DNA of 64,000 nt, taken from the NCBI GenBank assembly GCA_945889005.1, contig CAMDBI010000012.1:1-64000 (forward strand), read 5' to 3'. The DNA is from Bacteroides fragilis (lineage in GTDB: Bacteria > Bacteroidota > Bacteroidia > Bacteroidales > DTGW01). The notes beneath the pieces were generated by a model. It saw only the letters and a list, made by a program, of their open reading frames with translations, was not told where the DNA came from and did not search any database. The translations under genes and the position numbers were made by a program. Shown here in pieces: positions 13,318-15,817 of the stretch (positions are counted from its first letter, which is position 1; every line of letters begins with the position of its first letter).

Positions 13318-14601
13318 TTAACTTCTTAGAGCTTTAATAACATTGAGACGACTAATTCGAAAAATTGGGTATAAAACTGCGAAAAAAGTCAACACAAAAA
13401 CTGCAATTCCTTGGTTTATAATATAATCTGTTTGCCACAAAACCGGCATAACAGGTTCCATGCCATATATCTCCATGGTTTGTGCCATTTCGCCCGTTAA
13501 TTGTATGGGGTTAAAATGCCAGTATGTAATAAGTGGCAGGCTGCCGATCATTCCAAGTATGATACCCATTGTAGCAATTAAAAGCATTTCGAAGCAAACG
13601 ATAGACAGAATTCGTTTGTACGATGTGCCAATGGCAAGCATTACACCAAATTCGCGGGTACGTTCGGCAGTCATCATCATTACAGTGCCAAAAATTCCAA
13701 ATCCAACAATAAGGTAAAGTAAGCCAAGAATAAGTATACCACCACCTTCGTCACTCACATATTGCTGGTACAGTTCATTAAGCATTTGTCGCCAGGTCAT
13801 TACTTCGTATGTGTCCAGGTCTATTTTGGCGGCAATTGCATCGGTTGTTTGGTCGAGAAAACGGGGTTTTTCAATATCAATCACCAGCGAAGTGAGTCTA
13901 TTGTCGCACGAGTAAAACGATTGAGCAATATTTAATGGCATAAAAACCATTTGATTGTCCCATTCGGGCGATGGAAGTTTTACAATACCTTTAACAACAA
14001 ATATTCCATTGGCCGATGCCCCTTGGTAACCTTGACCGATTAGGGTAAGTGTATCGCCCACAGCAATATTCATAAAATGGGCAAAACGTTGCGATACAAC
14101 AATTGCTGTATCAGATGCAAGTAGCATTGAACCATCTTTAATTTTATCGGAAAGTTTGCTAAACTGCTCTTCTTTTGCCGGGTCGATACCTGCAACAATA
14201 ACCCCCTTGGTTTTATTGCCTGCCGAAGCTAGTGCAAAGGACTCGACACGAGGTACCAACGATTTAACATTTTTGTTTTGGCTTAATTGACGGCTAAGCG
14301 AATCGGAAAGTTCAAAAGTGTAGTCAAATGTTTTCTCGTCCCAATAACCCTTGGCGTGAACCTGAAGATATCCAGTATATGAATGAAGCACATTGTCGAG
14401 CATATTTTGCCACGAACCACCATGCAAACCTCGCTGAACGATTGCAAAAAAAACTGCGAATGAAATTGAAGCCAGTGTTATAAGAGTGCGGCGTTTGTTG
14501 CGCCAAAGGTTTCGCCATGCAAGAGTGAAAAACGTGAATCGTGGACCGTGGACCGTGGACCGTGGACCGTGAACCGTGGACCGTGAATCGTTTTTATCCA
14601 T
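13318..14601 (-). CDS. FtsX/LolC-like ABC transporter permease with repeat-encoded N-terminus
   Basis: The 427-residue permease has the same plan as its neighbour: FTLAWRNLWRNKRRTL before the first helix, a periplasmic domain, and three C-terminal helices with MMMTAERTREFGVMLAIG. Its first 22 or so residues (DKNDSR, then STVHGPR twice) are encoded by the heptamer array 14533-14590. As three 7-bp units make 21 bp, the array reads as a repeated heptapeptide. The ATG overlaps the stop of the four-helix-bundle gene (TAATG), suggesting coupled translation. The ancestral start may have been lost when the array appeared. Confidence 0.9.
   Translation of the reverse strand: MDKNDSRSTVHGPRSTVHGPRFTFFTLAWRNLWRNKRRTLITLASISFAVFFAIVQRGLHGGSWQNMLDNVLHSYTGYLQVHAKGYWDEKTFDYTFELSDSLSRQLSQNKNVKSLVPRVESFALASAGNKTKGVIVAGIDPAKEEQFSKLSDKIKDGSMLLASDTAIVVSQRFAHFMNIAVGDTLTLIGQGYQGASANGIFVVKGIVKLPSPEWDNQMVFMPLNIAQSFYSCDNRLTSLVIDIEKPRFLDQTTDAIAAKIDLDTYEVMTWRQMLNELYQQYVSDEGGGILILGLLYLIVGFGIFGTVMMMTAERTREFGVMLAIGTSYKRILSIVCFEMLLIATMGIILGMIGSLPLITYWHFNPIQLTGEMAQTMEIYGMEPVMPVLWQTDYIINQGIAVFVLTFFAVLYPIFRISRLNVIKALRS
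14533..14590. repeat. heptamer tandem array, left arm (CGTGGAC/CGTGAAC, eight units)
   Basis: Eight exact 7-bp units (CGTGAAT, four CGTGGAC, CGTGAAC, CGTGGAC, CGTGAAT) lie within the 5' end of the permease ORF. The plus-strand unit is the complement of that in the array at 14992-15068, so the two are inverted. The inverted repeat continues outward: AGTGAAAAACGTG at 14524-14536 pairs with CACGTTTTTCATT at 15068-15080, with one mismatch in 13. Confidence 0.95.
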
Positions 14602-14957
14602 TATTTTTTAGAATTTAGGTAGTTTATCATACCTTGTATCAATTTAATACAATCAGAAACTTGTTGTATTGCATTGCCGAACTGTAGTTCTGAAATATAC
14701 AATTGGTCAAGGGCTACATATAGTTGCGACTCTATTTCGAACAATGAACCTCGAGAATAATGATAAAATTGTAACAATTCTTTGTCGCTATTTCTTCCAT
14801 TTCCTTCGGCAATGTTAGAAAGAACCGATACAGCTGCTCTTCTGATTTGATTTGTTAAACCGAACATTTCTTCTTTGGGGAAGTTTTTACTTAATGTATA
14901 GATGGTTGAAACCAATATCCTGCATTTTTTCCAAGCATCTAATTCCTTATAATCCAT
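14601..14957 (-). CDS. four-helix-bundle protein of the 23S rRNA intervening-sequence (S23/IVP) family
   Basis: This 118-residue all-helical protein matches the S23/IVP family, whose founders are encoded by intervening sequences within 23S rRNA genes and which is related to Avd of diversity-generating retroelements. Diagnostic stretches are the N-terminal YKELDAWKKC, the central NQIRRAAVSVLSNIAEGNGR and the late SRGSLFEIESQL. Its function is not established. It interrupts an ABC exporter operon and lies between two inverted heptamer arrays. Its TAA overlaps the ATG of the permease gene by one base. No reverse transcriptase or template repeat is nearby, so it is not part of a retroelement here. 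Confidence 0.92.
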   Translation of the reverse strand: MDYKELDAWKKCRILVSTIYTLSKNFPKEEMFGLTNQIRRAAVSVLSNIAEGNGRNSDKELLQFYHYSRGSLFEIESQLYVALDQLYISELQFGNAIQQVSDCIKLIQGMINYLNSKK

Positions 14958-14991
14958 ATATTAAGTTTTTAAATATCATTTTGAAAACACA

Positions 14992-15068
14992 ACTATTCAC
15001 CATCCACATTTCACAGTCCACGGTTCACGGTTCACAGTTCACGGTCTACTGTTCACTGTCCACTGCCC
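14992..15068. repeat. heptamer tandem array, right arm (ACGGTTC type, eleven units)
   Basis: Eleven consecutive 7-bp units can be read (ACTATTC, ACCATCC, ACATTTC, ACAGTCC, two ACGGTTC, ACAGTTC, ACGGTCT, ACTGTTC, ACTGTCC, ACTGCCC). They are in opposite orientation to the array at 14533-14590, with the four-helix-bundle ORF between. The stop codon of the LolA-like gene (15053-15055) lies inside the ninth and tenth units, so the array supplies that protein's last residues. Confidence 0.95.
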
Positions 15069-15817
15069 ACGTTTTTCATTCTCTGTTGACTAAAAAACCC
15101 ATCCTCAATTTCAATGTTGAACTTAACATTCACAATATCGAGCAGGGTTTTATTTCCGGGTTTGTCGGTAGGAACAATCTCGAAGTGCGTAGGAATTTGC
15201 CGATCGTGCATTTGTCGGATGTTCGATGCCAGTTCGGTTTTAACAAGCAAATTGTCTTCGTCGTAGTATTCGGTTTTGAGTTGGAAAAGTCCATCTTTGC
15301 TAATCCATTTTACTAAAGCTCCCCAAACTACAGCTGCATCGGGCTTGGGGACGAGTTTTATTTTATAACATTGTTTATTGTCGAAAGTTTCCGCCTCTAA
15401 GAATGAATGTTCGAAATCTTTAACAATCGACGATTCTTTCAGAAGGTCGTCGTTCGAGAAGTCGGAACCCATCCATCCTTGCGACATCATCGATGGCGGA
15501 AGTTTTATCATACGGTTGATAGACGGTACCCAGTTCCACATTTCGTTGCCACGTTTAAGAAATGTTTGACCCTTTTCTTTTGCAGGTTCTGTGACAAGAG
15601 CCATACTAAACTCGCTGGTTTTTGACCATGTTTTAAAACCGATAGTACGTTTCCAAGTTGGTCGTACAATGGTCATGGTCATTTCGGTAAAGTTGCTTCT
15701 GTCGTTGTTTATTTCGTAGGCTTTTTCTATAATTTCTTTGGCCGATTGTCCGTTCGAAGTAATTAAGGCGAAGTAGAAACCAAAAATAAGGATTATTGAT
15801 GCTTTCATTCTAGTCAT
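15053..15817 (-). CDS. LolA-like outer-membrane lipoprotein-sorting protein
   Basis: The 254-residue protein has an N-terminal signal peptide (about 1-23, ending ALITSNGQS) and matches the LolA-like family annotated as outer membrane lipoprotein-sorting protein. It has the single-domain unclosed-barrel pattern of strands and a GNEMWNWVPSINRMIKLP stretch typical of that group. It probably acts in the periplasm with the two permeases and the ATPase downstream. The final residues VGSGQ are encoded by the right heptamer array, so its natural C-terminus has been replaced or extended. It is the first gene of the operon; the 123-bp gap to the divergent YfhO gene should hold both promoters. Confidence 0.9.
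   Translation of the reverse strand: MTRMKASIILIFGFYFALITSNGQSAKEIIEKAYEINNDRSNFTEMTMTIVRPTWKRTIGFKTWSKTSEFSMALVTEPAKEKGQTFLKRGNEMWNWVPSINRMIKLPPSMMSQGWMGSDFSNDDLLKESSIVKDFEHSFLEAETFDNKQCYKIKLVPKPDAAVVWGALVKWISKDGLFQLKTEYYDEDNLLVKTELASNIRQMHDRQIPTHFEIVPTDKPGNKTLLDIVNVKFNIEIEDGFFSQQRMKNVGSGQ

Follow-up and report, generated by a model that had tools for sequence, protein, structure and literature searches.

S23 genes between inverted short-repeat arrays at operon junctions: evidence pointing to a widespread class of hairpin cassettes akin to rRNA intervening sequences

Genes of the S23 'four helix bundle' family are common in bacterial genomes, and we know of no function for them. Intervening sequences (IVSs) of 23S rRNA also occur in short forms that lack an ORF, as in Salmonella, where they measure ~90–110 nt. 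In Coxiella, the 23S rRNA IVS has complementary ends round an S23 ORF, and its 28-bp stem is cut by RNase III in vitro (PMC4990558). Members of the family are also found in cas loci, where 18 PF05635 genes are listed under a CRISPR-Cas-associated function (PMC3936711), and homology between Avd and the S23 structure 2GSC has been noted (PMC10053308). Short arrays of heptamers have been described in other settings. The available text of PMC4692102 describes inverted pairs of G-rich GGGAATC arrays in Xanthomonas, which are convergent, intergenic and transcribed, while TAACTGA arrays occur sporadically in intergenic regions of Beggiatoaceae, Cyanobacteria and Bacteroidetes (PMC4679880). The S23 hairpins considered here bring together the IVSs of rRNA, heptamer arrays that lack an explanation, and the S23 genes of cas operons, and the consistent place of S23 inside matched repeat-array hairpins gives this protein a testable role. 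The hairpin on which we focus was picked out in an initial annotation made from the sequence alone; it is real, and more general than such a reading could know.

An S23 gene in the loop of a predicted hairpin

The window analysed is a stretch of 64,000 nt from Bacteroides fragilis (contig CAMDBI010000012.1, positions 1 to 64,000). On its minus strand, an S23 (23S_rRNA_IVP) gene for a four-helix-bundle protein of 118 aa (14601–14957), the cargo of the cassette, lies between an upstream gene for a LolA-like protein (15053–15817, minus strand; PF17131, E=1e-51) and a downstream gene for an FtsX/MacB permease (13318–14601, minus strand; PF02687/PF12704). The S23 protein is a member of PF05635 (E=5e-35; 120.3 bits against a cut-off of 33.8, profile positions 1–105 of 106), its nearest solved structure is 2GSC (Xcc0516; E=2e-18), and it has a weak match to bAvd (8.6e-7). 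The upstream, G-rich arm consists of 11 degenerate heptamers of the GTGAACC/GTGGACA type (14992–15068, minus strand) and would form the 5' side of an RNA stem; the downstream, C-rich 3' arm consists of eight complementary heptamers, CGTGGAC, CGTGAAC or CGTGAAT (14533–14590, minus strand), which are translated in the permease frame to give its N-terminus (NDSRSTVHGPRSTVHGPR). Both the sequence and the coordinates of this arrangement, a gene of this family between eight and 11 complementary heptamers, were as first annotated. The inverted repeat pairs 14522–14585 with 15019–15082 over 64 nt, with 81% complementarity. Its reported extension past the arrays, 13 nt with one mismatch, is real, but it is host coding sequence rather than array end: positions 15068–15080 (minus strand) hold the LolA codons R-MKNV, and 14524–14536 (minus strand) the permease codons around FFTL.

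Relatives retain a native LolA C-terminus (FFSQQNMKxVR-stop) and a native permease N-terminus (MxxYLKLAWRN), and hence the arrays can be seen to start within the last LolA codons. In this genome the array begins straight after LolA MKNV and contributes the last residues, GSGQ-stop, while the S23 stop codon overlaps the start codon of the permease (TAATGG). For a 576-nt segment of minus-strand RNA, the predicted fold has an energy of −180 kcal/mol, compared with −124.6 ± 7.2 kcal/mol for shuffled sequences (z −7.7; none of 100 shuffles equally stable), with the two arms paired as one long stem of ~60 bp. The suggestion that the operon transcript could fold into a stem of more than 50 bp with the ORF in its loop is thus upheld by the prediction. 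Complementary ends that form a predicted stem round an S23 ORF, as in a 23S rRNA IVS, are therefore present at this locus, which lies between lolA-like and permease genes and not in a 23S rRNA gene, where IVSs sit in helix 25/45.

A comparison of relatives for empty sites had been proposed for this junction, and many of them are indeed bare, with short spacers. Other relatives have arrays and hairpins without a gene, one (L352) has an apparent S23 C-terminal remnant between ATTAGTA-type arms, and another (L353, genome G089) has a GxxExxY gene between inverted arms. Elsewhere in the window, an array hairpin of the same family without S23 lies between co-directional genes (34544–34700) and serves as a comparison case, and an octamer array of GAGTAGAT without S23 is found at 45301–45434; its unit family also flanks the sufB-S23-sufC copy of the genome. 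A short array of AAATTTGA octamers at a gene junction (49160–49195) resembles the arms of the murE-mraY cassette. Near the window start, at 75–144, a 24-nt sequence (AGTTGTACACTTTGCTCCGAAATC) occurs three times in tandem.

Inverted arms at S23 loci within and beyond the genome

Four PF05635 genes are present in this genome, three of them in operon junctions and with three different units. The lolA-permease locus has inverted arrays of GTGAACC units, the sufB-sufC locus of GAGTAGAT octamers and the murE-mraY locus of AAATGTGA-type octamers, so that each has inverted arrays of its own unit; at the fourth, adjoining a tRNA gene, no arrays were seen. The tRNA gene and the genes that we take to be sufB, sufC, murE and mraY are named from our own reading of the sequence. 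Arrays are far more numerous than these genes. A search of this genome for GTGRACNGTGRACNGTGRAC with at most two mismatches gave 404 matches (reversed control, 0), and in 464 kb of sampled stretches, partly picked around arrays, GTGRACN heptamer arrays far outnumber S23 genes, most being intergenic and without S23. An array alone is thus no marker of the element, and the idea that arrays belong to S23 only was rejected, since the majority of them lack it. Arrays unassociated with S23 genome-wide would have told against the initial annotation; this came true by half, in that arrays are also abundant without the gene. The S23-free arrays suggest that array hairpins serve as a substrate beyond S23, or that the element has a form without an ORF; they do not suggest that the S23 loci are due to chance.

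The survey covered 167 S23 loci with both flanks, which are not all independent, 96 of them from the order (Bacteroidales) and the other 71 from named contigs that span many phyla. At each, the 250 nt upstream were locally aligned to the reverse complement of the 250 nt downstream, with a threshold score of 36. Inverted arms were present at 92 of the 167 loci, compared with 22 of 1336 mismatched pairs of flanks (order, 49/96 vs 3/768; named contigs, 43/71 vs 19/568), a conservative control since the mismatched pairs include related loci. Round neighbouring genes in the same stretches such arms were found in only 3 of 206 cases, and direct repeats were rarer than inverted arms at the S23 loci themselves (13/96 in the order, 3/71 in the named contigs). 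The expectation that inverted heptamer or octamer arrays flank S23 genes generally is borne out in this sense. The 45% of S23 loci without arms above the threshold perhaps include some that have decayed.

Within the named set, arms occur in nine phylum-level groups, to which cyanobacterial plasmids can be added, with 6 of 11 S23 loci scoring at least 46 (control mean 18.7; one control pair reached 48). Three of the plasmid genes lie inside cas operons (L403, L407, L408); the cas6-S23-cas4 copies are flanked by strong inverted arrays that score 50 and 56, and the cmr2-S23-cmr3 copy is weak (29). As a rule the arm unit measures 7 nt (or 8) and is specific to the locus and common to both arms, the period being 7/14 in 56 and 8/16 in 17 of 87 arms. 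In the upstream arm G exceeds C in 84 of these 87 and falls below it in three; ORF-less short hairpins in the same genomes have the same polarity (17 with G inwards, 3 without). S23 genes are co-directional with both neighbours at 119 of 157 loci (76%; controls 94/156, 60%) and antisense to both at only two (controls 15/156). Array hairpins occupy ~1–4% of intergenic regions, and S23 genes are found in 110 of 149 sampled genomes of the order, in up to 20 copies. A conserved 23S motif was not found in the context of the fetched S23 loci.

Some further arrangements were seen in the surveyed stretches. At one locus (L168, genome G112), dense AAGTTGAA-type arrays in both orientations surround two S23 genes, and at two others (L121, L133) the spacers between arrays contain copies of a different inverted repeat, of the ATCCTTCGCT...CTCAGGATGACA type. 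GxxExxY genes (PF13366, PDDEXK_3) had inverted short-repeat arms in 10 of 33 cases across the order, compared with 5 of 330 mismatched pairs; loci of this kind are L353, L386, L388, L385, L389 and L395. S23 may therefore not be the sole cargo. The three GxxExxY copies in the genome of the window had no inverted arrays on inspection.

Turnover at junctions and concerted change of the arms

The serC-serA junction was compared in 30 species of one genus (L257–L286) and a further congener (L310), and is a hot spot in that genus. It is bare in 5 of the 30 (11–38 nt), holds a short ORF-less array hairpin with varying units in 16 (76–132 nt), and holds an S23 hairpin of family A or B in nine (463–486 nt); the further congener has a third S23 family between GTGAATT arms. 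Placed on the host tree, these states require 18 changes, and there are supported pairs of sister species with unlike states (S23A/S23B; bare/S23B). At sufB-sufC, S23 is present in 4 of 26 resolvable genomes. Where dN/dS could be measured for S23 it was 0.11–0.13, which indicates purifying selection; its dS is mostly saturated, compared with 0.4–0.7 for serC in the same species pairs, a gap for which serC codon bias could account in part. For 106 pairs of S23 proteins with identities of 62% or higher, the two genes lie in unrelated contexts; arms are shared in some of these pairs and not in others. Turnover of junction states together with S23 relatives in unrelated contexts requires that favoured junctions have undergone insertion or exchange independently. 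Within the genus, recombined junction alleles may contribute to the turnover, and homologous recombination among congeners could shuffle such alleles without transposition. The proposal of a mobile element between protein-coding genes fits these data, as junction states change fast enough to imply movement.

The arms themselves change in a coordinated way. Four genomes from different families have S23 genes of one clade at sufB-sufC (support 100/79); the clade also includes two members at other sites. The units at the four sufB-sufC loci are GAGTAGAT, AAGGAAGTT, AGAAGTTAA and one of an irregular kind, GAAGTT, and at every locus the two arms match each other. An arm scored higher against its own partner than against arms from other species at the same site in 4/4 cases for suf, 4/5 for junction-2, 5/5 for ser-B, and 4/4 each for the Selenomonadaceae and Verrucomicrobia sets; for ser-A this was so in 2/4, and in close relatives that share a unit (Prevotellaceae and Kiritimatiellae groups) own and cross scores did not differ. 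Across families, then, one and the same junction has units that differ and yet match within each locus, so that the two arms must change in concert, by either selection for pairing or homogenisation between arms. This is a natural case of distant hairpin arms changing sequence together, in which the maintenance of complementarity is directly testable.

The nature of the cassettes and their relation to known systems

Taken together, the evidence points to the hairpin with an S23 gene and array arms being a widespread mobile element, one that turns up between genes across some ten bacterial phyla. The locus in the window probably belongs to a widely distributed class of hairpin cassettes that resemble IVSs and spread among operon junctions. 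Such a cassette would be an inverted repeat with arms of 7- or 8-nt unit arrays and, usually, an S23 gene in its loop; it would lie where two genes meet, in most cases within a co-directional operon. The operon transcript would fold into a stem, and we infer both that RNase III cuts it, as in the 23S rRNA IVS, releasing the S23 message from that of the host, and that S23 takes part in movement. Such a cut would separate the two messages and make the insert cheap for the host; rRNA loops and operon junctions are alike in that cutting there harms little. Being a relative of Avd, the S23 protein could plausibly bind hairpin nucleic acid and so aid insertion or persistence of the cassette. New copies may enter array hairpins present at the target or build them anew there; the matching of arms within but not between loci favours this over the carriage of fixed ends. 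We know of no transposase-like activity of S23 and of no movement enzyme. Among the candidates rejected were movement by a reverse transcriptase (no PF00078 match in this genome or in G175), movement by RAYT/Y1 (Y1 transposases are present, but with REP-like flanks), a phage origin (50,697 phage records gave no match to S23) and a strict one-unit transposon, as related S23 copies often differ in arms.

The arms could instead be ordinary slippage-prone repeats in which one arm is templated on the other during fold-back or template-switch repair; they would then stay complementary without having a function, and S23 would be incidental. The commonness of arrays without S23 in this genome fits this, as do the 70 convergent GGGAATC pairs of Xanthomonas, for which the available text of PMC4692102 reports no gene link, and the polarity of ORF-less hairpins, which self-priming of the G-rich strand could explain. 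We nevertheless consider it unlikely: homogenisation may explain why arms match but not why they lie round S23 genes, at 92 of 167 compared with 3 of 206 neighbouring genes, in many phyla and in a setting where array hairpins take up so little of the intergenic sequence. The opposite view, that the arms are the terminal inverted repeats of a classical transposon and move together with the S23 gene, can draw on related S23 genes that share arms in different contexts (L173a/L178a, L067/L104, L117/L126). Many other related pairs have unrelated arms, such as L067 and L102, which lie in one genome and encode S23 proteins 78% identical between GTCAGTG and AAGTATGC arms, each self-complementary; terminal repeats that are specific to the element and move with it are thus not the general pattern. 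As the unit also changes at orthologous sites, and no transposase was found, a classical transposon is highly improbable. No target-site duplication was seen, the nearest empty sites being too diverged for the junction ends to be aligned.

Least probable of all is a regulatory hairpin useful to the host, in which S23 and its arms act as an attenuator, insulator or mRNA stabiliser kept by selection. The preference for co-directional junctions, the purifying selection on S23 and the persistence of hairpins while units change would all suit such a role, but sister species vary irregularly in whether a junction is occupied, the junctions concerned are empty in many or most of the relatives, and the host genes involved are unrelated. 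Returning to the mobile cassette, a more specific form of it can be put forward only tentatively: the four-helix-bundle protein, or at times a GxxExxY nuclease-like one, may colonise the loops of repeat-array hairpins at operon junctions, with a dedicated process that restores the arms or maintains their complementarity site by site, in place of inherited ends, and with the rRNA IVS as the special case in which a host helix supplies the stem.

A link between S23 and inverted arrays was not found in the open PMC literature; subscription papers lay outside that search, so this absence is not proof. The GGGAATC pairs of Xanthomonas are also G-rich heptamers, inverted and intergenic, but differ in having one unit genome-wide and in having been studied as G-quadruplexes; the available text of PMC4692102 connects them neither with S23 genes nor with mobility or a joint change of the arms. 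TAACTGA arrays differ in being direct repeats before start codons, with one inverted case and no S23 gene (PMC4679880). RAYT/REP systems are similar in that non-coding hairpins are dispersed over intergenic regions and the genome encodes a small enzyme, whereas the Y1 genes of the genomes analysed here are flanked by REP-type palindromes, and the cassette arms are 7-nt arrays. Avd shares a homologous fold with S23, as the weak bAvd match indicates, while a diversity-generating retroelement would include a reverse transcriptase, of which this genome has no PF00078 match. The S23 genes of cas loci (PMC3936711) belong to the same family and lie at operon junctions, and the copies analysed here look like inserted cassettes. 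The closest likeness is to the 23S rRNA IVSs of Leptospira and Coxiella, which share an S23 ORF within complementary ends, a stem and an erratic distribution. The initial annotation had proposed the same plan, and it holds for the inverted ends round the S23 ORF and for the short ORF-less forms too. The cassettes differ in lying between protein genes, in having arms made of 7- or 8-nt arrays with locus-specific units, and in that their stem is predicted. Their kinship with the rRNA IVSs is thus one of plan and protein, not of location, and membership of the IVSs is not claimed for them.
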